From contig NZ_QTJY01000013.1 in the NCBI RefSeq assembly GCF_003703975.1, forward strand, positions 1 through 64,000: a stretch of 64,000 nucleotides of DNA, given 5' to 3'. A model generated the notes under the pieces. It was not told where the DNA came from, did no database searches, and was given only the letters and a program-made list of their open reading frames with translations. Both the position numbers and the translations under genes were made by a program. Below, one piece after another: positions 46,901 through 63,707 of this stretch. The DNA is from Larkinella soli (GTDB taxonomy: Bacteria > Bacteroidota > Bacteroidia > Cytophagales > Spirosomataceae). Numbering within the stretch: the first letter of the stretch is position 1; each line of letters opens with the position of its first letter.

Positions 46901-47368
46901 ATGGCAGAGGCATACCATTCAGAACATACAAGGGAAGAAGGCAACTTTCCATTAAAAAACTTTTCTGAGAGGACTTACGAACATAGGCTAAATACTGACG
47001 ACAACTCTTTAGATGCAACAAACTATATGGATGAGATTGAATGTATGGCGAAGTTTAAGATGGTTTATAAAAGGGAAAACAAAGAGAGGATTGAATGGTT
47101 CTTCCGACACGATAAAATCCAGGACTTCTTCCTACTTCAAGCGTTTACAAATAAATCAGAGCGTCAGATTCTACATCTTGGCGATCCGAAATTTAGAGGT
47201 GTGTATTTCCTTTTGGCATTAAAATTACCATTTGATGATGCTCAACTACTTCGGGAACAAATTATCCAATACGGTGCAGACCATAATGATAATACAGTTA
47301 GTAATGAGTTCATAAAATTACTTCGGTCAAGGGCTGAAAAAATGAAGAATACACCAACGGGTTTATGA
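43904..47368 (+). CDS. HEAT-like-repeat membrane NACHT-type NTPase
   Basis: The 1154-residue protein begins with a lipoprotein-type signal (MKKIAIFLMLANFSISC). Residues 95-533 hold thirteen repeats, exactly 33 residues each except one of 43. A typical unit is QKLEPSAINALIDKLN, and pairs of helices are expected as in HEAT repeats. An alpha region (about 535-680) leads to a hydrophobic span at 684-708 and perhaps another at 727-745, then a basic turn. The NTPase has Walker A GESGLGKT (802-809) and Walker B DVFIDGLNEV (867-876), the NACHT form. A C-terminal helical region of about 180 residues follows. NACHT proteins are STAND-type switches, many of them in phage defence, but the repeats here lie N-terminal and topology is unclear. 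No operon partner overlaps. Confidence 0.78.
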   Translation: MKKIAIFLMLANFSISCNHYPTTNESNFNIIKNWQFNGLLLALKDTNVDVNEIAIESLDERWLSDSTKRIDLQFLDSLQKNKLLVGIEYDALVQDKLEPVTIKSLIDKLISTNDLSLQNRGFFALSRQKLEPSAIKILIDKLNQSTENSLRENVAYVLGRQKLEPSAINTLIDKLNLNTGTALLDNLANILGQQELETWAINALIQKINLNAGSYMQLNIINVLGRQKLEPSAINILIDKLNLYAGSAQINNIANALKQQKLESSAINELIDKFNSVINSKVESSIAAILGEQELEPSVINELVNKLNYTTNVDVETSIAVALGKQKLSFSAINALVNKLNSTTDLDVVRIVAKALGKQELESSAINALVSKLYQFPYEEIFSADLTTLRPDRELAIALGNQKLESTTINALIDKLNVNTEGILQYRVAEVLSQQELEPFAINELINKLNSTTNLNLEKNVSRALGGQDLEPSAINALIDKLTSKTDHAAAESVVLALKNQKLEPEIINKVINETNNIAQFNKITQFDFLESQSPDVKWSNYMLAILLNERLNAFIQEGQDYEDQDRFKIFYQSGRTTKSDTPVRWLFGIPTESIMKKISADELESELFILTEFWPSCQNFPIVKEEFAKQVTELATYLENSNSDHVLDLLKLNEKNFSDENFKSRANSLNKVINVIENKKSWINKLISLIPWAISLHLLFWIALLFAYPNSPTVQSMFFWNPEVLKWGGLFYVKAALIHIPFLRKRILYPFRNRLLEDARLESFREDAYFSESIVRVEANGQHETLIERIAKEDRKILLIGESGLGKTMYLRKLAQTYLNDTNRLAVYLRASECNNGVVEAIQEKVKGIAQDTDFLKPLIFIGAMDVFIDGLNEVSPDTRSYIRKFLGDYGKGKCIVTSQPIPDLPNDMKQFTLLPLNQQQLTNFLLKRNQLEERPISEASIHAYLSKMLNPILPMQELKDNERILSNPLDLSIVGQLLASGITQPNLNQLQEKLYQQMAEAYHSEHTREEGNFPLKNFSERTYEHRLNTDDNSLDATNYMDEIECMAKFKMVYKRENKERIEWFFRHDKIQDFFLLQAFTNKSERQILHLGDPKFRGVYFLLALKLPFDDAQLLREQIIQYGADHNDNTVSNEFIKLLRSRAEKMKNTPTGL
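44186..45502 (+). repeat. Thirteen tandem 99-bp coding repeats
   Basis: Units start at residues 95, 128, 161, 194, 227, 260, 293, 326, 359, 402, 435, 468 and 501 of the NACHT-type protein, so the period is 99 bp apart from one 30-bp insertion. At the DNA level the blocks near 44375-44435 and 44573-44633 are nearly identical and offset by 198 bp. This indicates repeat duplication by recombination. Confidence 0.85.
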
Positions 47369-48694: not shown

Positions 48695-48729
48695 ATGTGT
48701 AATTAGTTCTTTTACATATTGAATTGCCT

Positions 48730-48915
48730 ATGAAAGCAAGCGACCTAATTCAAATGCTTTTAGATGCTGGCTGGCAGGAGGTTCGGCAGAAAGGTAGTCA
48801 CCGGATTTTTAAACATCCTGACTTTCCAAGGACGATCAGTATTCCTGATCATGGAAAAAGTGACCTCAAAATTGGAACTCTGAACGCCATTCTAAAGCAA
48901 GCCGGGTTGAAATGA
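48730..48915 (+). CDS. hicA: HicA family mRNA interferase toxin
   Basis: The 61-residue toxin has the HicA double-stranded-RNA-binding-like fold: MKASDLIQMLLDAGWQEVRQ and then KGSHRIFKHP with the conserved catalytic His region, and a final LNAILKQAGLK. HicA cleaves mRNA when free of HicB. The ATG at 48730 was chosen, since family proteins start with MKxxxLIxxL; an in-frame TTG lies 6 nt upstream. Its stop codon falls in the loop of a perfect hairpin. Confidence 0.9.
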   Translation: MKASDLIQMLLDAGWQEVRQKGSHRIFKHPDFPRTISIPDHGKSDLKIGTLNAILKQAGLK

Positions 48916-48925
48916 CAACCCGGCT
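48900..48925. promoter_or_regulatory. Intercistronic hairpin at the hicA stop codon
   Basis: Arms 48900-48909 and 48916-48925 are perfectly complementary over 10 bp, and the TGA of hicA (48913-48915) lies in the 6-nt loop. Only C-rich sequence follows, so it is not a classic terminator and may adjust the toxin:antitoxin ratio. Confidence 0.6.
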
Positions 48926-48994
48926 CCCCTTCTGGGGATAAAATTGGGAAGGCTGCTATGTAGTCTTACTTTAACCATATTTTTAGCAGATTGT

Positions 48995-49417
48995 ATGAAA
49001 GCAAGGATGAGCAAAGCATTAACTGTTATCTTAGAAAGAGATGACGGCGAATTTTGGGGACGCATTGAGGCTCCCGACTTTCTACATGTAACCCAGGGGG
49101 CTACGGTAGCAATTGTAACTAAGAATCTGCGCGACCTGGTCGCCGATTCGCTGGAACACGAACTGAAAGACAAACCCGAATGGCAGGGAGTTACTGCCGA
49201 CACGATTCAGTTCGATTATGTTTACGATCTTCAATCTTTTTTCGAACGATTCAAAGAATTAAAAATGACAGCCATCGCCGAGCGTGCAGGATTGAACAAG
49301 AATCTTTTGCACCAATACGTGGCGGGCCATAAACATCCGAGTGAACAGCAGGCAAAGAAGATTGAAAATGCTGTTCACGCTCTGGCTGAGGAACTTAGAA
49401 AAGTCATCCTGGCGTAA
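48995..49417 (+). CDS. hicB: HicB family antitoxin with HTH domain
   Basis: The 140-residue antitoxin has an N-terminal partly degraded RNase H-type HicB domain (LTVILERDDGEFWGRIEAPDF cut short here, with GATVAIVTKNLRDLVADSLE). A C-terminal helix-turn-helix runs from about 86 to 140 (MTAIAERAGLNKNLLHQYV). The HTH represses the operon through the palindromes upstream of hicA. ATG 48995 was used; ATG 49007 in frame is an alternative that trims 4 residues. The gap of 79 nt from hicA is longer than in many hicAB pairs, leaving room for a second promoter. Confidence 0.85.
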   Translation: MKARMSKALTVILERDDGEFWGRIEAPDFLHVTQGATVAIVTKNLRDLVADSLEHELKDKPEWQGVTADTIQFDYVYDLQSFFERFKELKMTAIAERAGLNKNLLHQYVAGHKHPSEQQAKKIENAVHALAEELRKVILA

Positions 49418-50382: not shown

Positions 50383-50823
50383 TTAACGGGTGCTGATAAC
50401 CACTACGACGCCGATCACGGCTAGCAGGGTGATCAGTTGATTACCGGTCGCATAAACCCGGTTCCAGACCCGATCCGCGGCCATGCGTTTATTATTAGCC
50501 TCCAGTAGCCGGTTATCCCCTTCCAGACGGGCGGACCGGGCTTGACTTTCCTGCAGCTGTGCATGGTAGGCGGAAATCCGTCGGCTGGCCTCCTTCGCCA
50601 AGCTGTCGAGCCTCGCTTCCTTTAGCATCAGCAGCGTATCAGTTACGGCCAGCACGTATTCGACCTGGCCCACCCGAGCCTTCAGAGTGCGGTTTTCCTC
50701 CCTCAGCTGAGCTACTTCTCCCGTCAGGCCTTCGATCTGTTTGGCGGGCGGGATCACCAGGTTCAGTGTCTGGGCCGCGGCCGGTCGGGTCAGCAGGACC
50801 AGCAGAATCAGGATCCGGTTCAT
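50383..50823 (-). CDS. Coiled-coil protein with signal peptide and C-terminal helix (spanin-like)
   Basis: The 146-residue protein has an N-terminal signal (ILILLVLLTRPAAAQ), a long coiled coil at about 30-105 (LTGEVAQLREENRTLKARVG and heptad-rich continuation), and a C-terminal membrane helix (LITLLAVIGVVVVIS). The plan recalls spanin or Rz-type proteins that join inner and outer membrane during lysis, although both ends hydrophobic is not the textbook form. It overlaps the previous holin-like gene by ATGA and sits just before the DUF5675 gene. Confidence 0.65.
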   Translation of the reverse strand: MNRILILLVLLTRPAAAQTLNLVIPPAKQIEGLTGEVAQLREENRTLKARVGQVEYVLAVTDTLLMLKEARLDSLAKEASRRISAYHAQLQESQARSARLEGDNRLLEANNKRMAADRVWNRVYATGNQLITLLAVIGVVVVISTR

Positions 50824-51296
50824 TGAGTTTTCAGCAGGCGCCGGGCGCTGTCGAGTTTGGCCTCCAGCACCTTCTCCCGGTCGGTCGGTTCACTCCCCGC
50901 CAGCGAGGTCGGGACCGTCTGGGTCATGGGCTGGAGATACTTTTTCGTCGATTCGCGCTCAAACAGCAGCAGAATCAGGATCAGGGCGAAGGCCGGCACG
51001 AACCACCACAGCAGACGCCGGTTCAGGTCGGCCCGTTTCTCCTTCGGCATCGGCTGCCAGTACGTATACCACAACCAGCTGAAGGCCGTCACGGCCGCGA
51101 AGCTGCTGACCAGAAAGGTCGTCAGGTTCAGCAGGCCCGGCACGAAGCGCCACGCCAGCCAGGTGAAGAAAAAGGATCCGGCGACGCCGATCATCGGCAC
51201 GGATACCCGCTTGGGCAAGCCCTGCGTGGTGGCACAGATCAGGTAGGCCCCGATGGCCGCGCTGATCAGAGAGACTTGAATGAGAATGTCGATCAT
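50820..51296 (-). CDS. Holin-like membrane protein
   Basis: The 158-residue protein has four hydrophobic segments (IQVSLISAAIGAYLICATT, MIGVAGSFFFTWLAWRFV, LTTFLVSSFAAVTAFSWLW, LLWWFVPAFALILILLL). A charged C-terminal tail follows. Its place directly before the spanin-like gene and after another membrane-protein gene, all with ATGA overlaps, makes a holin or antiholin likely. No sequence family is recognised. Confidence 0.6.
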   Translation of the reverse strand: MIDILIQVSLISAAIGAYLICATTQGLPKRVSVPMIGVAGSFFFTWLAWRFVPGLLNLTTFLVSSFAAVTAFSWLWYTYWQPMPKEKRADLNRRLLWWFVPAFALILILLLFERESTKKYLQPMTQTVPTSLAGSEPTDREKVLEAKLDSARRLLKTQ

Positions 51297-51682
51297 GGTT
51301 TGACAGGAGTTTCCAGTTTGGTAAGCACTTGTTTGAGGAGGGTGACGAAGATTTGCCGAAGGGCCAGCATCGGATTCCGGCTCAACTCATCCCCTACACG
51401 ATCCACGGCCACCTGAATGAGACTCCCCAGGTAGGCCAGCAGAAACCAAAGCCAGAACAGCATTTTCCAGTACACTTCGTAGCCGAACAGCAGCACGGCC
51501 GTACACATCACTATCCCGACACCCACACCGCCAAAACAGAAGCCGGTGAAGAACGCCTTCAGGGCGTGGACCAGGTGCATCGCTTCCCGGTTGATGGCCC
51601 GTACGGCTGAGCCCAGAAACAGGCACAACAGCACGATAACCAGATCAGGGACGGCTTCCAGATTTTTGAGCAGTTCGTTCAT
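51293..51682 (-). CDS. Holin-like membrane protein
   Basis: The 129-residue protein has about three membrane helices (VPDLVIVLLCLFLGSAVRA, FFTGFCFGGVGVGIVMCTAV, MLFWLWFLLAYLGSLIQVAV) and an amphipathic C-terminal helix. It is the first of two consecutive small membrane proteins in the lysis region, and its end overlaps the next by ATGA. It may form a holin/antiholin pair with the next, which is inference from context. Confidence 0.6.
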   Translation of the reverse strand: MNELLKNLEAVPDLVIVLLCLFLGSAVRAINREAMHLVHALKAFFTGFCFGGVGVGIVMCTAVLLFGYEVYWKMLFWLWFLLAYLGSLIQVAVDRVGDELSRNPMLALRQIFVTLLKQVLTKLETPVKP

Positions 51683-51715: not shown

Positions 51716-53791
51716 TTAATCGGTAATCGGGCGCATCGATCCGGAATACTGGGTGTAGTCCGAACCGTACAGGGTAAAATCGTTGTAGAGAAACGAGATC
51801 GGCCCGCCATTGATAGGGGCATACGGCCGGGCGAGTTTCGTCGATCCGGTCACCATCTGCGTTTTGGTGTAGGCGATTTCGCCCGGCGATCGGGTGTACC
51901 GATCAATATAGGAGGTCGTATTGTCGGCCGACCGGCGAGCAATCAGAATCACATCGTCATAGCTGGGCGTCGATCCAAAAGCCATACCCGGCAGGTAGTT
52001 GGCGTCCTGATCGTAGCCGATACGGGGGCCGGCCACATCCGGGAAGATCTCCGTCATCCACATGGCCGGCAGCGTCTGACTGGAGGCCCTGACGATTGTT
52101 GAACCACTGTTTTGGCTCCAGCTTTCTCCGGCCGTGCCGGTGGTAGCTCCGGTACCGGCCGTGGCGGTGGTAAAGTTGACCCCGGCTACCTCCACACCCG
52201 AGCCGTTCAGGATCCGCACCGACTTGACCAGCAGGTTCAGCGCCAGCGAGGGGTTGGTTGAGTTGTTGGGTACCGTCAGGCTGTTGGTATTGGCAATCGG
52301 GGCGGCCGTGGCGCCGAGGCTGTAGCCCGAGGGGGTCAGTTCCTTCCAGGTGGCTCCGCCATCGGTCGAATAGATCGGGTACACGACTGAGTTGCCTCCG
52401 ACGTTGGTGCGGAAGCGGAAGCCCAGGCCGACCTCATCGGTCCATGCTCCGGGGACATATTCGGTCGTGGTGATCTGGCGCTGGGTACCGCCGGTGATGG
52501 CATAGCTGAAGACGAACCGCCGGTCGGAGGTTAAGGCCGCAAACCAGCCGTTGGTGGCCGTCGATCGGCGCCGGATGAAATCCACCGTTTGGGTGGGTTT
52601 CTGTAGGTACCGGCAGACGACCTGGGCGTCGAAATCATTCAGGTTCAATGCGGCCGAGGAAGCTGTGCCGGTGTACCCGTTTCCCGTGCTGGTCAGCACG
52701 CCGTCGAAAGTGATCGTCGAGGAGGGAATGTAGCGGGTGACCTTGTACTGGGCGGCATTGTAAGTGCCGCCGGTGACATCCCAATCCGCATAGGCAATGG
52801 CCGGTGGCAGCGGCCCCGAGCGAACGTAGAAAAGCCGCCGGGAATAGCCCGTGGCCACCGTCGAGAGGGGCGTCAGATCGGTATCGAGAATAGCGCTTCC
52901 GGAATAAATGTTGCCTGTCAGAGCCGGGGTGACGATCGAAGAAACCGCCCCGGTTTTGACGTCGATCTCCAGATAGTGCAGATCGTGGGCGGAAGCCGCC
53001 GGGTTGTAGCTGAAGGCCATGCGGATCACCTGATTGCCCGAGGTGTTGAAGGCATCGGCCGTGATGATGTAGCTCTGCCGGGTACTGCCGTTAAGAATAT
53101 CCCGGTAAGCCCTCGTCCAGGTCAGCGCCCCGGTGGCCTGATTGACGCTGAAGGTGGCAATGCCCCAGAAGGTATTGTTCTTTCGCGTAAACAGGATAAA
53201 CGTGTCCTGCAGGGAGTCCGAATCCGCCTTGAGCCGATGAATCTGGGTGTAGGACGAAAGCGACCCCAGATTCAGCTGAATTTCCGGACCCCACTTCGTC
53301 ACATCGCCTGATAAACTGCCGACCTTAAACCGGACCAGGTTGTCGTTGTTGTGATTCGTCCAGGCGATGATCGGACGGTGGTCATCCATCGCCCACAGCG
53401 CCGGGCTACAGTGATCATCGACCACCGCCGAGCCAACTTTGAACCGTTTGACTTTGCCCGTCGAATGGGCTATTTCATTAACGACAATGTCGCCGTTGGC
53501 CGCGATACCACCCGAAACTACCCTTTCGTAAGGCTTCCGTAGGTAGGTCGCCACCGGATGTTGCCACCACTCCAGTACGGCATCGGAAAATGGCGTTTTT
53601 CGGCTGGCCTCAATCGCCTGTTTGACCCGGAGGGCCGACATGGCTTTGGAGTTGTCGGAAAGCTGCTCGGCCTCGGTCTGGCTGGCGATGGTGACCGAAC
53701 CTCCGCCACCGCCTGACGACCCACCGAGGCCAGGACGCTGACCAAGGGCCATTAGCGGGGCCAGCAGTAGGAAAAGAAGGGCTTTTTTCAT
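51716..53791 (-). CDS. Tail-fibre-like BNR-4/LamG protein with signal peptide
   Basis: The 691-residue protein opens with MKKALLFLLLAPLMALGQ, a clear signal peptide, then a Gly-rich spacer and a tail-fibre-type segment, IASQTEAEQLSDNSKAMSAL (about 34-53), a pattern known from phage fibre attachment regions. Residues about 85-320 resemble BNR-4/sialidase-like propellers (GSAVVDDHCSPALWAMDDHR; DLHYLEIDVKTGAVSS). A LamG-like jelly-roll follows near 370-560, then a second propeller-like piece. It likely binds or cleaves a surface glycan. The export signal on a virion-type protein is unusual. The next gene lies 1 nt upstream. Confidence 0.68.
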   Translation of the reverse strand: MKKALLFLLLAPLMALGQRPGLGGSSGGGGGSVTIASQTEAEQLSDNSKAMSALRVKQAIEASRKTPFSDAVLEWWQHPVATYLRKPYERVVSGGIAANGDIVVNEIAHSTGKVKRFKVGSAVVDDHCSPALWAMDDHRPIIAWTNHNNDNLVRFKVGSLSGDVTKWGPEIQLNLGSLSSYTQIHRLKADSDSLQDTFILFTRKNNTFWGIATFSVNQATGALTWTRAYRDILNGSTRQSYIITADAFNTSGNQVIRMAFSYNPAASAHDLHYLEIDVKTGAVSSIVTPALTGNIYSGSAILDTDLTPLSTVATGYSRRLFYVRSGPLPPAIAYADWDVTGGTYNAAQYKVTRYIPSSTITFDGVLTSTGNGYTGTASSAALNLNDFDAQVVCRYLQKPTQTVDFIRRRSTATNGWFAALTSDRRFVFSYAITGGTQRQITTTEYVPGAWTDEVGLGFRFRTNVGGNSVVYPIYSTDGGATWKELTPSGYSLGATAAPIANTNSLTVPNNSTNPSLALNLLVKSVRILNGSGVEVAGVNFTTATAGTGATTGTAGESWSQNSGSTIVRASSQTLPAMWMTEIFPDVAGPRIGYDQDANYLPGMAFGSTPSYDDVILIARRSADNTTSYIDRYTRSPGEIAYTKTQMVTGSTKLARPYAPINGGPISFLYNDFTLYGSDYTQYSGSMRPITD

Positions 53792-53792
53792 C

Positions 53793-54122
53793 TTAATAGT
53801 ATTCGGAACGGAGGGCTAAACGAACAATAGGAGTTCCAGAGGTCGCCTTGAACCGGAAGTTTTTGACATCTTCCGCTGATTCGAGTTTGAAGGGTGGGCT
53901 TTTACGGTCCATCTCGCCTTCAATGACTGCTCCCCCGACGGTATTGTAAATAATGGACGCGTTGGTGTTCTGGTCAGTCGAATCACTGATTCCGACCGAA
54001 ACGTAAGCCCCATTATAGTAGGCATTCGGAAAATCGTTCAGGTTGAAGCCCAACCAACTGCTGGTCGCATTGACTTCGGCATTATGAACGGTCTTTGGCT
54101 TGCCCGGGTGCGTGTGTGCCAT
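53793..54122 (-). CDS. Small tail-region protein, unknown
   Basis: The 109-residue protein is beta-rich and soluble (AYYNGAYVSVGISDSTDQNT, IVRLALRSEYY at the end). It starts MAHTHPGKPKTVHNAE, with no signal. It lies between two long fibre-type genes, 1 nt before the BNR gene and 26 nt after the spike gene. It may be a fibre chaperone or connector, which is inference only. Confidence 0.6.
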   Translation of the reverse strand: MAHTHPGKPKTVHNAEVNATSSWLGFNLNDFPNAYYNGAYVSVGISDSTDQNTNASIIYNTVGGAVIEGEMDRKSPPFKLESAEDVKNFRFKATSGTPIVRLALRSEYY

Positions 54123-54148
54123 GCTCGTTTAGTGGTTTGTTTGGAGAA

Positions 54149-57100
54149 TTATTGGGTTCGATACTTGACGTTGAAGGAGAGGTAGTATTCGGTGGCGCTG
54201 GCAAAACTGCCGCCGTAGGTGCCCGCCTGATGGCCGAAAACCAGATTCGGCGTAGTGTCCAGCAAACCCGTATAGACGGCCGTGTCGTTATGGGACGAGA
54301 AGGTGAAATACATATCCACCGAATCCACAAATCCCGGAATGCCCGTAATCGCCGGCTTGCCCGTCGCGGCCAGCGTCGCGTAGGCCACGCCCGTCAGCTC
54401 GAAAGTGCCGTCAATCTTGTTGATCATCACCCGACTGAGGTTGTAAGACGTCAGGGCCGAGCCGTTCTCCCGGGTCATCGCCAGCACCCCGTTATCGGCC
54501 CTTAGCATCTGTACCTCCGAGTTGGCCCAATTGATGGCCGCCCCCGAATAACCCCCCGCTTTGGTGATCACTGTCAGGGCTCTGAGCGAAACGCCTGAGC
54601 CGGCGATGGCCACGTTCTCCCGGACGACCAGACGCTGAATCTGGTGGTTGGTTGCATCGTACTGCACGACCGGCGGATTGGCGTCGGCCGAACCCAGGGT
54701 GTTGAAGTAGAACGTGTTGTTCTTGACGGTGATGGCCGCCGTGTTGGTGCCATCAATGTAGACGCCGTAGTTGCGGGAAAAATCGGTGTTGTTATTGATG
54801 AAGTGGATATAACCTGTCGGTGCCGCCCCTACGCCCAGAAAGGCATTGGGATACTTCGTGTAGTCCATCGTGATCCCGCCAGGCTGCGTATCGTCGGTGA
54901 TCAGGGATTTATAGCTGTTGCCCCGATAGGTATGATTCAGGCCGGCCGAGGAGGTGAACGGCAGCGTGCAGCGGCCTGAAATGCGGTTGTTTTCGACGGT
55001 GATGTCCTTCCCTCGCAGTTGAAAACCTTCGTAGCAGTCGACGACATCGTTATCGTAGAAAGCGATGTTTTCCGCGGCCTCGTGGCAGGCAAAGCCCTGG
55101 GATGTCCCGCCCGTGGTGGCGGAGTTGAACCAGTCCGTTCCCGAGGTGTTCAGACCCGTATTGCCGGTGACCGTATTGCCGTACACCCGGCCCAGACGGC
55201 TGGGACCTGCCGAGCCGCTGCCCGAAAAGTCCACCGCCTTGCGGTTTCCGAAAAATTTGTTGTCGTGGATGTTGTAGATCAGCCCACCCAGCGGGTCGAT
55301 GCCGTACCCTTCCCCGGTTTCGTTGGCCCCCGAAATCGTGCAGCCGGCTACCTCGAAGTCGTACATGGCCTTCGGCTCGATGCCCGTATACTGGAAGCCC
55401 TTCACAACAGAGTTCGTCACCTTGCTTTTCTGCAGGTATTGCAGCGCCAGACCCGTCACCGGGTTGTTGCCCGTATCGTTGCACTGAATCTCGACATTAT
55501 CGATTTCGACGGTGGCCGCGTTGTAGTTGGAAATCGTCACCGTCTCCGAGGACAGATACGAATCCATCAGCGGGTGCCGCAGGGTTACAGTCGTTCCCGA
55601 AATGCCTTCGATGATATTCTGCTCGGCCTTTTTGACGCCTGAGCCGATGGGCCAGTTGGTGGCGCTGGCGATGTTGATCAGGTCACCGACGGCAAAGTTG
55701 GTCACACTGGTAAAGGTGACCGTGCGCGAGCCGATGGCGGCATTAGCCGAGAGCGTCGTACTGCCTGATTTGGCCGAGGCCCGCAGGATCAGCGGGTAGA
55801 GCGCCGTGTCGGGCAGCTTAAAGATGGCTTTTCTAGCCCCCTGCCGGGAGCGGATTTTGATCGTGCCGGCAAAACCGAAGTCGATGGCTGTGCCCAGGTA
55901 GTAGGTTTTGGCCGGGTCCACCGTCAGCGTGCGGCCCGAATTGGCGGCCATATAGGTCAGGGCGGACAGGATTTTGGCGGCATCGTTGGTAGAGCCGTTT
56001 CCGGCCGGATTCCAGATCTCAATAGGCACATCTTCGCCGGGCAGTAGCCTCCAGCGGCCCGTTGACTGTCCTGTCACCTGATGCACAGTCGCTCCGTCGT
56101 CGGCCGTCGTCGACAGCGAATCCCAATAGAACTGCACGGCCGGCATATCGCCCTGTGTCGTGTAGCCTGAGAGTGTCACCACGTGCCCGTTCAGAGGTGG
56201 AACTTTTGCTTTCATAGCCGCAACGGTCGGATATTCGGTCCGGCTATTCACCAGCGCCAGCTGAGCGTCGTTAATGAACCGGTTATTGGTGTTGGTGGCG
56301 ACTTTCCCAGGCGATAGGAGCGGGATATCGTCTTCAATCAGGGCCCGGAAGCCCGGTGCCACCGAAGCCCCTGACACCGGACCGGCAAACACCTGATTGG
56401 CCGTCTGTGCCGGCAGCGACAGGCTCCCCGCCGACAGTGATCCGGCGATACCGACGCCGGTAGGGCTGACTGTCACCATGGTCGTTCCCTTCGTGACGCC
56501 GGCGGACGCGCCGGTGCGGATCTGTAGGTTGGCGTCGGTCCCCAGGATTGAATAACCCGCCGATCCGGACGTGAAGAACTGTACGCTGGATTCGGTCGGC
56601 GTGCCCACGTTGGGCATCAGGTTGATGCCGTTGGCGCCACTGCTTGCCTGCAGGTTCAGCAGCGTTGTCGTCGAGGCCGTGTTCACGCTCAGGCTGCCCG
56701 ACCGCAGGTTGCCGCCCACCCGGCCAGTGCCGCTCAGGTAGAAGCTGGCACTCTGGGCCCGGGCCGTCTGGTTCTCCAGAAAATTGACGCCAGCCCCGTC
56801 CGAGCCGGGCGATCCATAGGACAGCCGTAGCGACGAGTCGCCGGCCGCAATCCACAGGTGCGAGTTGCCCAGCCGCAGGTGGCCGTTATTCCAGCCCCCG
56901 CCCACAATGCGGAAAGAGTTGGCCGCCGAGGTGCCGTTGAGGGTAACTGCGATCGTGTTGTTGGTGCCGTCCGAAGAAGGCGAGATGTTGCCCGTCGAGA
57001 ATCCGCCGGAATAGAATTCCATGATCGGGTTGGAAGCCGCCCGCTGCTTGAAATTGAAGTAGTTTCCCGCATCGCCGGTGCCGGCCGCATTCCGGAAGGA

Positions 57101-58777
57101 GGAGGTGACGATGGCCTGCTCGTCAAATTTGGCGATATGAGCCGCCCCTTTGTTCCAGTAGTCGACTCCCGTGTGATTTTTGACGGTGTTGCCCAGAAAC
57201 GAATTCGCGCCATCGTAGGTGATGCCGATGGTCTGGTTGGCGCTCAGGTTCCCGATGCCGCCCGTGTACGCCCGGCCGTCGACCACGTTGCCGACGACGG
57301 AGACGTTGGCCGATTTTTCCAGCACCAACCCGATCTGGGCCGTGGCATTGCCGAAGCCGGCGAACAGCACCTGGTTATTATTGAAGACTACCCCATCGAC
57401 CCCGCGCAGCTCGGCGCCCGATCCGTAGGACTGGTCAAACCGGTTGTGCGAAATGATCGTGTTGTAGGTACCGAACAGCTGCTGACCGTTGAAGAGAAAG
57501 TTCGTTTCCCGCCCCACCGAGAAGGTCAGCGTGCCGGATCCGGCCGTCGTCAGGTTAACAAATGTCCCAGCTACCGCATTTTCGTAGGTGGTAGCGACCT
57601 TGAAGCTGTTGGCATTGACGGCTTTGATCCAGTACGTCTGGTTGTCGACCAGCGGGCTGGGCAGGGTGCCGGACGTAGTGAAGATCATCACCGGCGTATA
57701 GTCGGGCAGTCCGTAAGCCGTCGCCGTCAGCGCATCGGTGGCCGCATCGGCGGTAAAGGTCCAGTTAAATTCGGGCCGTGCCACATTCGCGCTGGAATTG
57801 TAGCACATGTTATCGGTAATGATGTTGTTGAAACACCGGTACCCCGTTAGCCAGAAGGGGGTGCGGGCGATCGTCCCGTTCGAAACGCCGAAGCCACTGA
57901 ATGCATTCGAGTAAAACCGGCTATCGCGCACGGACTCCCCGTAGAAAGCCCCCTTGGCCGTGTTGTGGTGGAAATGCAGGGTGTTGACTTCTTTGGTGTG
58001 TACCGCAAACAGCTTCGTGCCCGTGAAAGCGCAGTGATCCACCTCGACCCCCCAGACGCCGTACATCCGCAGCCTTTGTAAATATTTATTGTCCCGATCG
58101 CCCCCGGTAAAGTCGAGGTTGGCGATCCGGCCGCCCTGGTAGCGGGCGCTGTCGCCATTCGCCAGCTGGCTGTAGACGGCCGGACCACCGTTCGTGTTCG
58201 CCGATACTTCCAGAATCGGTCCGGACAGGGTGCTGGCCGCTACCAGCCGGGCCATAGGGTTGGAAGCGGCCTGCTCGGTGACCGACACTTCCCCAATCAG
58301 CGAGACGTTGTACTTCAGGGTGATCGTCGTATCGACGGCGTAATCGGCCACCGGCAGAAACACCGTTCCTCCGCCGGCAGCATAGGCGTAGTTGATGGCC
58401 TTGCGGATGCCCGCATCGGAAAGGCTGAAGGCCCGCACATCCAGATACAGCCCTTTTGACCGCTCGTAGTAGTAGCCGGTCGGCCCGCGAAACACGATAG
58501 CCCCGTAGCCGGGTGTCGCCCCGGTCACCGTACCCACCTTCCGGATATAAATTGAGCCGTCGGGATGCTGCACGGCCGGTGCGTTGACGGTGGTAAATTG
58601 GCTGACAGAGGTCAGCACGGTCGGCTTGACGCTCACCGAGTCGTATTTGCTCTTCTGCTGAGTGGTCAGCAGCGATCTGCCCTGGCTGTTGAAGTACTGA
58701 TCCAGGGCCGCCGGGTCGGTCTGGGCCCAGCAAAGGGAGGTGAGCAGCAAAAAGAAGAGGACAAGCAGCTTTTTCAT
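54149..58777 (-). CDS. Large tail-spike-like beta-helix protein with signal peptide
   Basis: The 1542-residue protein starts with a signal peptide (MKKLLVLFFLLLTSLCWAQ). One right-handed beta-helix (pectate-lyase/tail-spike fold) covers about 100-540, with repeats such as NIITDNMCYNS and NVVDGRAYTGGIG. A middle region (about 560-800) leads to AGPVSGASVAPGFRALIEDD, a motif I recognise from phage fibres. A second beta-helix lies at about 930-1400 (GSTNDAAKILSALTYM begins it). Such proteins bind and often cleave capsule or lipopolysaccharide. No catalytic pair could be assigned by eye. It is the longest gene here and lies 2 nt after a baseplate-type gene. Confidence 0.72.
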   Translation of the reverse strand: MKKLLVLFFLLLTSLCWAQTDPAALDQYFNSQGRSLLTTQQKSKYDSVSVKPTVLTSVSQFTTVNAPAVQHPDGSIYIRKVGTVTGATPGYGAIVFRGPTGYYYERSKGLYLDVRAFSLSDAGIRKAINYAYAAGGGTVFLPVADYAVDTTITLKYNVSLIGEVSVTEQAASNPMARLVAASTLSGPILEVSANTNGGPAVYSQLANGDSARYQGGRIANLDFTGGDRDNKYLQRLRMYGVWGVEVDHCAFTGTKLFAVHTKEVNTLHFHHNTAKGAFYGESVRDSRFYSNAFSGFGVSNGTIARTPFWLTGYRCFNNIITDNMCYNSSANVARPEFNWTFTADAATDALTATAYGLPDYTPVMIFTTSGTLPSPLVDNQTYWIKAVNANSFKVATTYENAVAGTFVNLTTAGSGTLTFSVGRETNFLFNGQQLFGTYNTIISHNRFDQSYGSGAELRGVDGVVFNNNQVLFAGFGNATAQIGLVLEKSANVSVVGNVVDGRAYTGGIGNLSANQTIGITYDGANSFLGNTVKNHTGVDYWNKGAAHIAKFDEQAIVTSSFRNAAGTGDAGNYFNFKQRAASNPIMEFYSGGFSTGNISPSSDGTNNTIAVTLNGTSAANSFRIVGGGWNNGHLRLGNSHLWIAAGDSSLRLSYGSPGSDGAGVNFLENQTARAQSASFYLSGTGRVGGNLRSGSLSVNTASTTTLLNLQASSGANGINLMPNVGTPTESSVQFFTSGSAGYSILGTDANLQIRTGASAGVTKGTTMVTVSPTGVGIAGSLSAGSLSLPAQTANQVFAGPVSGASVAPGFRALIEDDIPLLSPGKVATNTNNRFINDAQLALVNSRTEYPTVAAMKAKVPPLNGHVVTLSGYTTQGDMPAVQFYWDSLSTTADDGATVHQVTGQSTGRWRLLPGEDVPIEIWNPAGNGSTNDAAKILSALTYMAANSGRTLTVDPAKTYYLGTAIDFGFAGTIKIRSRQGARKAIFKLPDTALYPLILRASAKSGSTTLSANAAIGSRTVTFTSVTNFAVGDLINIASATNWPIGSGVKKAEQNIIEGISGTTVTLRHPLMDSYLSSETVTISNYNAATVEIDNVEIQCNDTGNNPVTGLALQYLQKSKVTNSVVKGFQYTGIEPKAMYDFEVAGCTISGANETGEGYGIDPLGGLIYNIHDNKFFGNRKAVDFSGSGSAGPSRLGRVYGNTVTGNTGLNTSGTDWFNSATTGGTSQGFACHEAAENIAFYDNDVVDCYEGFQLRGKDITVENNRISGRCTLPFTSSAGLNHTYRGNSYKSLITDDTQPGGITMDYTKYPNAFLGVGAAPTGYIHFINNNTDFSRNYGVYIDGTNTAAITVKNNTFYFNTLGSADANPPVVQYDATNHQIQRLVVRENVAIAGSGVSLRALTVITKAGGYSGAAINWANSEVQMLRADNGVLAMTRENGSALTSYNLSRVMINKIDGTFELTGVAYATLAATGKPAITGIPGFVDSVDMYFTFSSHNDTAVYTGLLDTTPNLVFGHQAGTYGGSFASATEYYLSFNVKYRTQ

Positions 58778-58779
58778 CG

Positions 58780-59448
58780 TTACGAAGCGGGCATGGTGAC
58801 GCTTTCCAGCAGGGTGGAAAAGCCAGGGATGTAGAGGTATTTTTTATGGTTGGTGATGTCGACGAACTCTTTGGCCAGCGGACCCGTCGCCACCGCCTGG
58901 GCGGCACTCAGCGACGCCACTGGAATCGGCCGGGCCGTGGCCAGGCCCTGTTCCACATCATAAATGCGGCTCTGCAGGGCGGCAGCAATCTCCGTGGTGA
59001 TGGTTTCGCCCCCTTCGGAGGTCAGCTTCGAGACGAACACCTCAGCCATCGACGGCCCCGGCTCATTGGCCGTCTTCGGCAGCCGCTTGTAGACGGTGAT
59101 GTCCGTGTATCGGAAGGTTACCTGACCGTCCGCCGTCTGACGATACCAGCGCAGTTCGTAGGCCGCCGTAATGTTGGCCACCGACAGGCTCAGGCCCGCA
59201 ACGGTTGGCGTAGCGGCCTTCAGCCGGATGATGTGGTTCTGGGGCCGTGACAGCATCGGACTGTCGTTGGCGATGATCACGTTGTGGCTTTCCTGCTGCG
59301 GGTTGGTGATCTGAATGCCGATTACCCAGGCCGATACGTCGCGCGGGCTGTTGTCTTCGTTCAGGAACTGAAGCTCGATCATGAAGGCGTCCGTGGCCAG
59401 GCGGGCGCCGGCGGATTCGGGAATATACGGAGCGGACTGGTCAGCCAT
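58780..59448 (-). CDS. Tail or baseplate protein, unknown
   Basis: The 222-residue protein has no signal or membrane helix. Its N-terminal part is beta-rich (DAFMIELQFLNEDNSPRDVS, AWVIGIQITNPQQES) and resembles tail-associated immunoglobulin-like modules. A helical stretch follows near 150-190 (SEGGETITTEIAAALQSRIY). The closing segment VDITNHKKYLYIPG is typical of fibre-linker proteins. It overlaps its upstream gene by one base and ends 2 nt before the spike gene. Confidence 0.6.
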   Translation of the reverse strand: MADQSAPYIPESAGARLATDAFMIELQFLNEDNSPRDVSAWVIGIQITNPQQESHNVIIANDSPMLSRPQNHIIRLKAATPTVAGLSLSVANITAAYELRWYRQTADGQVTFRYTDITVYKRLPKTANEPGPSMAEVFVSKLTSEGGETITTEIAAALQSRIYDVEQGLATARPIPVASLSAAQAVATGPLAKEFVDITNHKKYLYIPGFSTLLESVTMPAS

Positions 59449-60935
59449 TAGAGCGTATCGTTATAGACCATCAATTCGTGACCTTCCACCTGCTGCTGGA
59501 TCGTTTTACCCGAGCTGTGCTGCATCTCCAGAATCCAAGGCTTACCCGGATGGCAGGCCTGATTCGTCGCCATGAAGGTGATGTTGCCGTCCTTCACCCG
59601 CGTTTCGGCCACGACGGCCATCGCCCGGTTGAGGTTGGTCGGATCGTCGGAGGAAAGCGCCCGGGCGGCCATGTAAAGCACGTCGGAGCCGTTGGGTTTA
59701 GGATCGGTCCAGGGCGACCAGTCGGCATCGCCCTCTCGCTTGATGCGGAATTTGCAGTAGGCTTTCGTGCCGCCGTGGGTGGCCACCGAATCGGCGTAGA
59801 AATGGTTCGAGACGGTCAGCTCGTCGTAGGCCGACAGGCGTTTAGCCGGGAACTGATGGCCTGACCGGCCTGGGAAGTTGCCGGTGCTGCCGCCACCGCC
59901 GTCCGGGTAGAATTCGGTATGGGTATTGATGCTCTGGACGTTGACATCCCGGCCGAATTTCGGTTCACCGTTCCAGTCGATGCGCTTGCCCGTTTCCCAG
60001 AGCGCCAGAAAGCCCATGGCAATGTTCTGGGTCGTCGGCGTCTGGATGTAGCCCACCTGGCGAATTTCTCCACTCGGGTTGGTCGTGCGGATCGACCGCT
60101 TATGGCTGAACTGGCCGACCGCCAGCGTTCCCGTATGCTCGCGCATGGGCCAGTAGAAGCCGCAGCCCTTCGTGTGGCTCAGGCCCAGGTCGGAGCAGGC
60201 GTACTTCATGATCTCGAAGCGGTGCTTGACGTTGTAGAAGTCGAGCATGGACGCCTTATTCGCCGAGGTCGGATACCAGCTGACGTTCCAGCCGATGATG
60301 TTCTTCAGCCGCGAGAAATAGCCGATTTTGTCACGGGCGGCCGCCGGCGAGTTGTACCGGTTCAGGAAATAAGGGTGCAGCGGGTTTTGCTCGCTGGTAT
60401 CGGGCGCCGTGAAGTTGTCGTACTTCTGATAGGTGGCAAATGAGCCGTAGTTGCCGTATATCAGAAACGGCTTCCCGTACAGCACGTGGCTGGGAGGCAG
60501 GTTTTGGTACCGCTCGGCAGTGAACTGGTTGGCCTTGTAATACAGGTCCGTGTACCATTCGATGATCGTCCCATCGTCGTCAGGCTCCCCAAACTGGTTG
60601 CCGTTCCACTGCACGAGCGGGTAACGGTTGACCGCCTGGCGGATCAGGTTGTCGTCGTTGACCACCGGATTGTGTCCCCGGATGCCTACGGCGGAGAACT
60701 GATTGGTACCGTAAACCGAAAACGCCCGGTGATAGTTGGACGTGATGGCATTGTCCCATGAGTTGTGGTCGAGGTGGGTCCGCTGCTTGAGGTACTCCGC
60801 CAGGGGCAGATCACCGTCCTTGCAATAGCCGCCGATCCAGACGTCGGACGGCAGGCTGACCGGCGGGGCGACCCGGATCGCGTTCTCGAAGTTGGAAAGA
60901 GTGTACCAGCTGGGAATTTTAGATCGTTTCGCCAT
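59448..60935 (-). CDS. Large late protein, possibly glycan-active
   Basis: The 495-residue cytosolic-type protein is rich in Trp, Tyr and Asn (WYTDLYYKANQFTAERYQNL, NIIGWNVSWYPTSANKASML in part). Many aromatic loops of this kind suggest a TIM-barrel-like or beta-rich carbohydrate-active fold. No family is recognised, and no acid pair can be pointed to. It is encoded between an Ig-rich tail-protein gene (3 nt) and the baseplate-type gene (1-base overlap). A role in host-surface recognition or degradation is inference from position. Confidence 0.58.
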   Translation of the reverse strand: MAKRSKIPSWYTLSNFENAIRVAPPVSLPSDVWIGGYCKDGDLPLAEYLKQRTHLDHNSWDNAITSNYHRAFSVYGTNQFSAVGIRGHNPVVNDDNLIRQAVNRYPLVQWNGNQFGEPDDDGTIIEWYTDLYYKANQFTAERYQNLPPSHVLYGKPFLIYGNYGSFATYQKYDNFTAPDTSEQNPLHPYFLNRYNSPAAARDKIGYFSRLKNIIGWNVSWYPTSANKASMLDFYNVKHRFEIMKYACSDLGLSHTKGCGFYWPMREHTGTLAVGQFSHKRSIRTTNPSGEIRQVGYIQTPTTQNIAMGFLALWETGKRIDWNGEPKFGRDVNVQSINTHTEFYPDGGGGSTGNFPGRSGHQFPAKRLSAYDELTVSNHFYADSVATHGGTKAYCKFRIKREGDADWSPWTDPKPNGSDVLYMAARALSSDDPTNLNRAMAVVAETRVKDGNITFMATNQACHPGKPWILEMQHSSGKTIQQQVEGHELMVYNDTL

Positions 60936-60938
60936 GGG

Positions 60939-63707
60939 TTAAGTCGGTAAGGTATCGGCAGAGCCGGTCCAAATGTCGTCCTGGAACCAGCGGGTGATGT
61001 AGCGTTGGTTGGCGTTGGTATACGAGCCTACATCCTTGCCCTTGGAATGCACGACGGTAATCGTCAGGTAGTAGTTCTCGCTGACCTCGTAGTTGGTCAT
61101 GGCCGGCCCGAAGGGTAGTTCGACGTTGTTGACGGTCGTAAACCAGCCGTAGCCGTTTTCAGCCGGGGATTTCGGTACGAACGTCAGGTAAACCTTGCCG
61201 TTCGAGTACGAATAGGTGATCGTACCGACATTGACGTTACAGACCGACTCCTTGTAGATTGTATCACCCCCGCCCATGCCTTCGGACACCAGATCAGGCA
61301 GGTTCGAGCCCGTCAGATCGTAGGTGCCGGCCGGCTCGATGAACTCGAAGCTGAGCTGTTTGGTATCATCAGCCAGTTTGCCCGAAATCCGGTAGCGTTC
61401 GTTCTCGGTCAGGGCCCCGAAGTTGTAGCGCCACCGCCGTTCAGTACGGCCGTCGCCCAGCGTCCGGGTCGTGGAGGTCGAAATCGCATCCTTCCAACCG
61501 ATGATGGTGTTCGCTGCACCGGGTGAAATGCCTTCCAACTGCAGTTTTGGCGCGGAACCCGTGGTCCACACGAAGGCTTCCGAAGTTCCCGGCAGGCCGC
61601 TGTCCGAGCCGTTGGTGATCCGCAGGTTAGTCAGGGTCGTTTCCAGCACCGGTCCGGTGTCGGACTTGATGTAGTAGTCGCCGTCGGTGTTGGCCTGCGG
61701 CAGCGTCTGCACCGTCGTATACTCCTCCGAGGTGTTGTTCTTGTTGCGCAGCCAGATTTTGATCTGCTTGCCCTTGAACAGACCGACGCTGGAGCCGCTG
61801 TTCGACAGAAACAGCTTATCGAGCGTATACTGCTGGAAGGTCTGCGCCGTCAGGTCGTAGTAATTCGAGGAGGTAAAGTTCGACCCGCCCGTAATCGCGC
61901 TTCCGTCGGGATTGGTCAACCGTACTTCCATCTGCTGGCTACCCGATACCCGCGCCCGCACGTGATACCCCTTCGAAACGGCATCATAGGAAAAGCCCAG
62001 CCGCTCCAGCCAGGTCGGCGCCCCGGATGTACTACCCGGGTAGTTGACCGTAAAGGTGAACTGGGAGAAGGTCTGACCGCCCCGTGGATCAGTAACCGCC
62101 ACCCCTGATGAATACGTGCCAGCCACCGTCGGCGTGCCGGACAATTCGCGCGTGACAGGGTTGAATGAAAAGCCCTCCGGCAGCTGAAAGGCCCACTCGT
62201 AGGTGAGCGGCTGGCCTTCCGGATCCCGGAACGTGTTCAGCGGTACGATCCAGCTGAAGGGCTGGCCGACGATGGCCGTCATAGCTGGCAGGGGGTTGTC
62301 GACGACGGGAATCTGGTTGGGCGCTTCGGTTGGATTCGAGATGGTGATTTTCAACGTCGTCGATACCTTGGCGCCGTAGTTGTCGGTGGCCGTCACCGTG
62401 GCCGTCGCGACACCCCCCGCCGACGGAGATCCCGAGACAGTCCGGGTGGCGGCCGTATAGGACAGACCACCCGACAGGCCCGTTACTTCGATGGAGATAA
62501 TCTGGCCGTCCGGATCAGAAAATGTATTGGCCGGGATGAGGTAGCTAAAATTCTGACCGACCGTCGCCGTCTGGTCCGGAATGACGTTGGCGACGACGGG
62601 TCCCTGGTTGGTGGAGGTCTGATCGAGCAGCGTCTTCAGCTGAGCGATGGTCATACCCGCCGGCTCCTTGCCGTTGGGGGTATCGATCCACACCCCGATG
62701 ACGTTGAGCGAATTAACCGTCGGTAAATTGCCCACCCGGATGGTTTTGACCTCCGGCGTTTCGTCCTTCGCTTTCGGGTCTTTCTGAAGCGTTTCTTTGA
62801 AGGAGGGCATGGTCAGAATTTTGGCTTGCTCGAAAGACAGTCGGGTAATCTTGCGGCCCTGGCCGCCCGCTTCGATGGCCGCAAATGCCTCGGGATTGAC
62901 CGAGTCGGAGGGCAATTCGATCCGAAGGCCGGAATCGTCGGTAGCGAGACGGAAGGGGTATTGGTCGGGAAGAGCGGAGTCGAAAACGACAGTTCCCGGA
63001 GGACTTTCCATGAAGTCAGGCGACTTCTCAATGTCGGCCTGGAGGCCGTAGACCTTCACCGAATACGCCACAAAATCGCGGTTTAGCCGCACGTACACGG
63101 CGACAGTACCAGCCGCTTCGGCCAGACAGACGAGATCGCAACCCAGCGCGTCGGGCAACATGGCTTCGCGCGTCCACCAGTAGGCAAAGCCTCCCCGGTT
63201 GGCGCAGAACAGGCGGATGACGCCTTTCTGGTAGCCGCCCCAGCCTCCGCCGGTCAGCTCCACGAAAACGTGATCGTAGGTGCCCGCCCCGGAGAGGGGC
63301 AGCGTGGCGACCCGGCGGTAGATGACCTGATTCGATCCGCTGGGACGCGAGTAGGAGATGCCCTCGGCATCCTCGTTTTTCTGGAGCAGTTCGATGACGT
63401 CGGCGGCCGACAGGACGCGGTCCTGCGCTTCCAGATGGCTGGGGTCTTCCGGATCGGCGAGCTTGATGAGGCCCGGCGTCAGGTAGTTGGCCAGTCCGGG
63501 CAGGACGGCATTGGCAATCTGGGCAAAGGAAGGGAACGCCGTGGCCAGGTTGATGTCGGTGACCTCTCCGCCCTGACGGGTGATCGTCAGAATACCATTG
63601 GCGGGGTTGAAGCTGTAAGACGCAGGAATCTGGGCGATCGCGGCATTTACCTTGTCGCGGCCTTCGTTTACAAAATCACCTTCCTGGATGGATTCAAGGA
63701 CTGCCAT
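60939..63707 (-). CDS. Tail protein with two putative Ig (cadherin-like) domains
   Basis: The 922-residue protein heads the late block. N-terminally a helical stretch (MAVLESIQEGDFVNEGRDKV) resembles the N-terminal helices of phage tail proteins. After about 350 residues come two consecutive putative-Ig/cadherin-like domains, seen as ATVGQNFSYLIPANTFSDPDG...TYTAATRTVSGSPS and AIVGQPFSWIVPLNTFRDPEG...FNPVTRELSGTPT. These are the He_PIG-type pattern. Further beta modules follow. Ig-like domains decorate phage tails and bind surfaces weakly. No signal peptide is seen. Its start lies 148 nt before the divergent gene at 63856. Confidence 0.68.
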   Translation of the reverse strand: MAVLESIQEGDFVNEGRDKVNAAIAQIPASYSFNPANGILTITRQGGEVTDINLATAFPSFAQIANAVLPGLANYLTPGLIKLADPEDPSHLEAQDRVLSAADVIELLQKNEDAEGISYSRPSGSNQVIYRRVATLPLSGAGTYDHVFVELTGGGWGGYQKGVIRLFCANRGGFAYWWTREAMLPDALGCDLVCLAEAAGTVAVYVRLNRDFVAYSVKVYGLQADIEKSPDFMESPPGTVVFDSALPDQYPFRLATDDSGLRIELPSDSVNPEAFAAIEAGGQGRKITRLSFEQAKILTMPSFKETLQKDPKAKDETPEVKTIRVGNLPTVNSLNVIGVWIDTPNGKEPAGMTIAQLKTLLDQTSTNQGPVVANVIPDQTATVGQNFSYLIPANTFSDPDGQIISIEVTGLSGGLSYTAATRTVSGSPSAGGVATATVTATDNYGAKVSTTLKITISNPTEAPNQIPVVDNPLPAMTAIVGQPFSWIVPLNTFRDPEGQPLTYEWAFQLPEGFSFNPVTRELSGTPTVAGTYSSGVAVTDPRGGQTFSQFTFTVNYPGSTSGAPTWLERLGFSYDAVSKGYHVRARVSGSQQMEVRLTNPDGSAITGGSNFTSSNYYDLTAQTFQQYTLDKLFLSNSGSSVGLFKGKQIKIWLRNKNNTSEEYTTVQTLPQANTDGDYYIKSDTGPVLETTLTNLRITNGSDSGLPGTSEAFVWTTGSAPKLQLEGISPGAANTIIGWKDAISTSTTRTLGDGRTERRWRYNFGALTENERYRISGKLADDTKQLSFEFIEPAGTYDLTGSNLPDLVSEGMGGGDTIYKESVCNVNVGTITYSYSNGKVYLTFVPKSPAENGYGWFTTVNNVELPFGPAMTNYEVSENYYLTITVVHSKGKDVGSYTNANQRYITRWFQDDIWTGSADTLPT

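Follow-up and report, generated by a model that had tools for sequence, protein, structure and literature searches.

Tailed phages conventionally assemble in the cytoplasm, and because the particles are built there, export signals on their tail spikes are unexpected. The window analysed here, a stretch of 64,000 nucleotides of Larkinella soli, is part of contig C12 of a 6.9-Mb genome and carries the end of a prophage late operon. Two of the genes in it, for proteins of 691 and 1542 residues, look like tail-spike or tail-fibre genes and begin with signal peptides. Where do such proteins go, and do they still become part of a virion? The sequence-only reading that drew attention to them weighed three possibilities: adhesins or enzymes sent out of the cytoplasm, virion assembly that follows export, or leaders that are never cleaved. 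It took for granted that the proteins of a virion remain cytoplasmic, which is an assumption.

Two spike-type genes at the end of the late operon

The late operon, on the minus strand, starts at 112.7 kb of the contig or further out and ends near 49.9 kb, with interruptions by plus-strand genes. The portal (phrog_7376), a capsid-type virion protein (phrog_7231), the tape measure and a structural protein of phrog_15220 are encoded in the same operon outside the window; the late placement claimed earlier for the two genes is confirmed. The operon end begins with three tail-region proteins that have no leader: a 922-aa protein with Ig-like domains (60939..63707, minus strand; Pfam He_PIG 2e-25, Big_9 8e-7), a 495-aa protein (59448..60935, minus strand) and a 222-aa protein (58780..59448, minus strand), the last two with no PHROG or Pfam family match. 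The 222-aa gene adjoins the 1542-aa gene (54149..58777, minus strand, ATG start) on its upstream side. A leaderless 109-aa gene (53793..54122, minus strand; no PHROG or Pfam match) separates the latter from the 691-aa gene (51716..53791, minus strand, ATG start), and a probable lysis cassette, assigned from weak matches and position, follows. It comprises a 129-aa membrane protein (51293..51682, minus strand), a candidate holin by its location and a weak match to the phrog_1129 holin family (E 0.038), and a 146-aa protein (50383..50823, minus strand) with a leader cut between AAA and QTLN and a C-terminal hydrophobic stretch. The latter is a candidate spanin or other lysis protein, a role that its position suggests. 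A location between the tail genes and the lysis cassette is the one expected for a tail spike or fibre.

Several other features were observed around the operon. An AT-rich island adjoins it at 43904-47368 of the window and encodes a 1154-aa repeat protein with a lipoprotein-like leader and, by eye, a P-loop; PADLOC gave no match for this island. A HicA/HicB-like toxin-antitoxin pair, recognised from sequence, adjoins the operon at 48724-49417. Within the operon and outside the window, 3-kb inverted repeats of 86.7% identity (contig C12 73404-76414 and 101637-104657) flank about 25 kb with restriction-modification, Vsr and PDC-M68B-type genes, a segment that could be invertible. The end of the tape-measure gene is also present twice there, in inverted orientation and at 82% identity (contig C12 85300-85541 and 95703-95944), as if gene islands had been inserted together with copies of the gene they interrupted.

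Both proteins match tail-spike or minor-tail PHROG families. The 1542-aa protein, a double tail-spike protein, matches the phrog_14558 tail spike (E 3e-34) over residues 919-1382 (54632..56023, minus strand). Ahead of this unit lies a right-handed beta-helix (Pfam Beta_helix PF13229), whose best stretch covers residues 428-548 (57134..57496, minus strand) and whose whole-protein score is 37.1 bits against a cut-off of 25.9. An AlphaFold model from residue 850 to the end reached a mean pLDDT of 80.5. In a Foldseek search with this model, the best 18 PDB matches were all tailspikes or capsule depolymerases, the top ones being the tailspikes AP22 gp54, phi297 gp61 and LKA1 gp49 (E 6e-17 to 1e-13). 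The C-terminal unit, and this unit only, is thus predicted to have the beta-helix tailspike fold. AP22, phi297 and LKA1 infect Proteobacteria, and we know of no export of their tailspikes. The 1542-aa protein shares their fold but differs from them in its Sec leader and in the second beta-helix unit ahead of the spike.

The 691-aa protein, of BNR/minor-tail type, matches the minor tail protein phrog_36751 (E 5e-34) and phrog_31597 (8e-39), with a Pfam BNR_4 match just below the cut-off; its AlphaFold model was unusable (pLDDT 35.5). No N-terminal virion domain was recognised in it; the two PHROG profiles that fit it best are matched only from 264 and 310 positions inward, and in a 416-aa relative the match begins at position 348 of 801. 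Only short fibre-type modules were seen in the N-terminal attachment region. Named phages likewise match the distal parts alone, Bacillus phage Mater from residue 920 of the 1542-aa protein and Gordonia phage Utz from residue 70 of the 691-aa protein. Scans of IMG/VR with the two proteins returned no relatives, and PDB sequence searches gave no match. The motifs quoted in the sequence-only reading are present, QTEAEQLSDNSKAMS at residues 38-52 of the 691-aa protein (53636..53680, minus strand) and AGPVSGASVAPGFRALIEDD at residues 798-817 of the 1542-aa protein (56327..56386, minus strand); that reading takes them to be phage-fibre motifs. The motif D[ST][AILMTV], which we take to be the Bacteroides O-glycosylation motif, occurs once in the 691-aa and eight times in the 1542-aa protein, a raw count to which we give no weight. 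Type IX secretion cargo was considered and rejected, with no C-terminal sorting-domain family among the Pfam matches of either protein at E up to 0.1.

Leaders at the translated N-termini

The leader of the 1542-aa protein comprises 18 residues (58724..58777, minus strand), MKKLLVLFFLLLTSLCWA followed by QTDP, with the cut after CWA. That of the 691-aa protein comprises 17 residues (53741..53791, minus strand), MKKALLFLLLAPLMALG followed by QRPG, with the cut after ALG. Each has a Lys-rich start, a Leu-rich core, a small-x-small site and then Gln. Leaders were called with a rule set of our own (n-region charge, hydrophobic core and small-x-small cleavage site) and not with SignalP; it calls a leader of the Bacteroidota signal peptidase I (SPI) type on both proteins. 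A Gln at +1 earns an extra 0.5 in this scorer, and the key counts were therefore also made with the bonus removed, whereupon the top site of the 691-aa protein moves two residues earlier. Among 20,000 shuffles of residues 2-40 of each protein, a leader was called in 0.93% for the 691-aa and 0.80% for the 1542-aa protein, and a leader with Gln at +1 in 0.28% and 0.33%. Without the bonus, these values were 0.81% and 0.50% for a leader and 0.06% and 0.09% for a leader with Gln at +1. Background ORFs of at least 80 aa from related prophage regions, which are unselected and mostly spurious, gave 7 leaders in 555, three of them with Gln at +1. With open reading frames at these positions, positive calls on both and shuffles below 1%, the signal peptides described from the sequence hold up.

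The position of the start codons bears on whether the leaders are translated. The ATG of the 1542-aa gene lies 2 nt past the upstream stop codon, and that of the 691-aa gene 1 nt past. In the 1542-aa gene, the next in-frame ATG comes at codon 175 at the earliest, with only GTG and TTG codons available from codon 10 on. The 691-aa gene has a second ATG at codon 14, inside the leader, and a start there would lose the leader. Both cleavage sites comply with the Bacteroidetes "Q-rule". Gln after the cut is a published hallmark of Bacteroidota SPI substrates, with a phylum rate of about 71% (PMC10653852).

Leaders on some fibres of related prophages and not on others

Related prophages were collected with marker A1, a tail-region structural protein that had a match in 23 of 222 searched genomes of the family and at 10 IMG/VR loci; up to 20 kb downstream of the marker was surveyed. 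Locus L070, which looks identical to the G004 prophage, was dropped. In the close group of 16, 12 prophages carry leader-bearing genes of at least 200 aa between the tail genes and the lysis cassette, one to five each and 24 in total: five in G125, three each in G063 and G523a, two each in the window's own prophage, G004, G048a and G083, and one each in G148a, G072, G530, L071 and L072. G518 has none, and three prophages were not judged, G079 and G120 ending too early and G524a being rearranged. Weakly called ORFs of 206 and 258 aa in G083 and G530, which are membrane-type or need an internal start, were left uncounted. Across 15 prophages (G524a left out), 70 genes of this size were listed, and the 24 are part of them. 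The survey of homologues thus makes the leaders a recurrent trait of the prophage family and not an oddity of two genes.

These leaders resemble each other in layout. In 20 of the 24, the start codon lies between -4 and +15 nt relative to the preceding stop codon, and in 23 a small residue followed by Gln occurs at the predicted cut or a few residues from it. Scored without the bonus, Gln is at +1 of the top site in 17 of 24 (71%), against a Gln background of 4%. Several of the proteins with leaders have matches in PHROG families of tail fibres, tail spikes or tail proteins, and several are GDSL/SGNH-type hydrolases or beta-helix proteins. Leaders span several genera and fibre families that have diverged. 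Prophages further removed vary: a leader is present on the gene at that place in G051, G492 and G086 and absent in most others. The leader codons of G051 and G492 comprise 22 identical, 4 synonymous and 2 non-synonymous ones, against 18, 30 and 24 in the next 72 codons; this is not clean evidence of selection, as synonymous change is low in the leader too. The marker did not pick up a phage-like region in G111 (L032) that contains four genes with leaders, one of 189 aa. The prophage regions of genus g47 to which the capsid-type protein led (G343, G367, G373, G460) had no comparable fibre block among the matches listed; G343 has a leader-bearing gene of 197 aa. Phylum-wide searches of 395 genomes gave four weak matches for fibre motif A7 and one for motif A4, and the latter search informs little on distribution, since the sample evidently contained none of the A4 members (G125, G530, G148, G120).

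In six related prophages (the window's own, G125, G004, G079, G148, G120), the gene that comes right behind the capsid-type gene encodes a separate small protein with a Q-rule leader. In the window's own prophage it is a 154-aa protein cut between SEA and QTTG (contig C12 107641-108105, outside the window; L003:4641-5105, minus strand). Late genes of at least 80 aa between the capsid-type gene and the marker bear a leader in 5 of 62 cases in six relatives, and all five are homologues of this small protein.

In five families, the fibre or its N-terminal module occurs both with and without a leader, and the alignment begins just past the cleavage site. The 621-aa family has a leader in G125, G530 and L071 and none in G148a and G120; a fibre that we ourselves read as BppU-like has one in G125 and none in G148b, G530 and G524b; the phrog_5939-type fibre in G125, with none in G524b and G145a; the YPL domain fibre in G004 and G125, with none in G148a; and the proteins with the NNSKxITA motif in G051, G492 and G086, with none in G124. 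Among five IMG/VR proteins with the latter motif, three have a leader and two are leaderless, with the motif at the extreme N-terminus. Leaderless forms begin at about the start of the mature form, and N-terminal modules common to leaderless tail genes sit directly behind the leader in the leader-bearing forms. With several of the same fibres existing in both forms, the predicted leaders are bolt-ons, and the retention of N-terminal modules right behind them suggests that attachment still matters. A Cys pair in the YPL domain is present in 10 of the 13 members with a leader and in 1 of the 15 without (Fisher p 2.7e-4; 28 members after two duplicates and matches below 25 bits were dropped), an association that is not independent evidence, as it reflects only two to three trait changes on a weakly supported tree. 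Cys content goes in the opposite direction in the 621-aa family and in both directions in other families.

Isolated phages provide a further comparison. In eight isolated Bacteroidota siphophages (11b, 6H, RAP44, B40-8, P2559Y over 40 of its 43 kb, Harreka_1, PD691P3, BF486P1), picked non-randomly and partly from search results, none of 162 ORFs of at least 200 aa has an SPI leader. The portal resembles those of Bacteroides, Flavobacterium, Croceibacter and Parabacteroides phages, with P2559Y, BF486P1 and PD691P3 among the matches listed; these isolates, like B40-8, 6H and others, differ from this prophage in having no SPI leader on such ORFs. On this result and on the g47 regions, we discarded the notion that phages of Bacteroidota carry such leaders as a rule. 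Q-rule SPI leaders are published for five genes of Porphyromonas gingivalis phages, of unknown function and proposed to modify the host outer membrane (Matrishin et al. 2023, PMC10367356). Those proteins likewise have phage-encoded Bacteroidota leaders that expose Gln, whereas the proteins described here are identifiable as tail-spike or fibre-type and stand in blocks at the fibre locus. Phage-encoded target proteins of diversity-generating retroelements are reported to be without signal peptides (PMC6199706), and two rumen Bacteroides phages to have two and one signal peptides (PMC5723332). Q-rule leaders on Porphyromonas phage proteins are already known; for identified tail spikes, the matches listed from PMC, which leaves aside most subscription journals and bioRxiv, included no report of leaders.

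Export, attachment and their alternatives

As judged from sequence, leaders of the right type stand at the translated N-termini, fit the SPI rule of the host phylum and recur in the prophage family, and both proteins are very probably exported by means of them. In the explanation that we prefer, the two proteins would be tail spikes that bind a receptor or process polysaccharide, encoded by a siphophage-type prophage of a cytophagalean bacterium of the Bacteroidota, and their leaders would be functional. Sec would export the unfolded spike chains during late expression. Signal peptidase I would cut before Gln, which would become pyroglutamate, and the chains would fold in the periplasm, presumably as trimers. 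When the lysis cassette breaks the envelope, the finished spikes may join completed virions through their N-terminal modules, the least certain step, and surplus spikes could stay free and work as depolymerases on cell debris. There is a parallel in P22, whose tailspikes can be attached in vitro to particles that are already complete. Export, cleavage, pyroglutamate formation and periplasmic folding are predicted from established knowledge of Sec and SPI in this phylum, and attachment at lysis from the retained N-terminal modules and the leaderless sister forms. The whole chain of export, processing, periplasmic folding and attachment at lysis has, in our estimate, somewhat less than an even chance of being right. 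Against it, no N-terminal virion domain was recognised in the 691-aa protein, close host homologues are plain secreted enzymes, and isolated relatives do without leaders.

A secreted product that never joins the virion would account for the data almost as well. The two proteins could be non-virion depolymerases or adhesins of the late operon, sent to the periplasm or freed at lysis, where they would strip the receptor polysaccharide, so that progeny avoid sticking to debris and superinfecting phages find no receptor; this main alternative is a serious possibility, though not a probable one. The host chromosome speaks for it. It encodes a secreted 442-aa relative of the 691-aa protein, 55% identical over aligned columns and with a leader in the corresponding position, together with two secreted 666-aa proteins related to the C-terminal half of the 1542-aa protein. 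These BNR-type and beta-helix-type proteins (C2:200412-201632; C22:15815-19742) have homologous domains and SPI leaders, at 36-58% identity, but are chromosomal and lack the QTEAEQLSDNSKAMS motif; the 442-aa protein also lacks the region matching 357-575 of the 691-aa protein. The hydrolase and beta-helix relatives with leaders, and the absence here of N-terminal domains that distant phage relatives possess, agree with a secreted product. On the other side, leaderless versions occupy the same block in sister prophages, fibre-type modules are retained behind the leader, and a 562-aa leader protein of G125 is long, Ala/Ser-rich and matches tail-fibre PHROGs, with no enzyme family seen in it. Of the outcomes named in the sequence-only reading, the evidence does not separate an exported adhesin or enzyme from assembly after export.

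The third outcome, leaders that stay uncleaved, fares worse. Such leaders are disfavoured since a Gln at +1 characterises those Bacteroidota SPI substrates that are cleaved, since leaders recur on unrelated fibre families and since leaderless homologues begin at about the start of the mature protein. The wider idea is that these are cytoplasmic fibres whose leader goes unused, owing to fast folding, a hydrophobic tail that docks into the tail tip, or a downstream start. It agrees with conventional tailed-phage assembly, with the ATG at codon 14 of the 691-aa gene, which would delete the leader, and with the existence of leaderless homologues. It appears unlikely, as the Gln makes sense only with cleavage, the 1542-aa gene has no in-frame ATG ahead of codon 175, a single prophage (G125) encodes as many as five distinct proteins of 200 aa or more that have leaders, and 20 of the 24 leaders begin at a codon coupled to the stop of the preceding gene. 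It is similarly improbable that the leaders are recent passengers, with secreted host genes captured as spike modules, leader included, and not yet purged. The strong similarity of the 691-aa protein to the 442-aa host protein, with both leaders beginning MKKAL, would suit such a capture. However, leaders persist over diverged fibre families and several genera, and the leader DNA of the 691-aa and host genes has diverged while the leader itself is retained. As a separate observation, tailspike-like beta-helix proteins adjoin genes that by eye resemble sugar or polysaccharide biosynthesis genes in the host genome and two relatives (L024:7812-11901 in G000 C22, L025:8593-10614, L026:8794-10887), a layout that looks like domestication of spike modules, or the opposite course.

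We put forward, tentatively, that a lineage of tailed phages may complete its virions outside the cytoplasm, with spikes routed through Sec, maturation in the periplasm (pyroglutamate, disulfides) and tail attachment only at lysis. Recurrent, functional-looking signals for the export of tail spikes would imply that the last step of assembly can take place at lysis, or else that some prophage "tail fibre" genes encode secreted receptor-destroying enzymes. The natural pairs of one fibre with and without a leader make this question directly testable, and either outcome would alter tail-gene annotation and host-range prediction in the phages of Bacteroidota.
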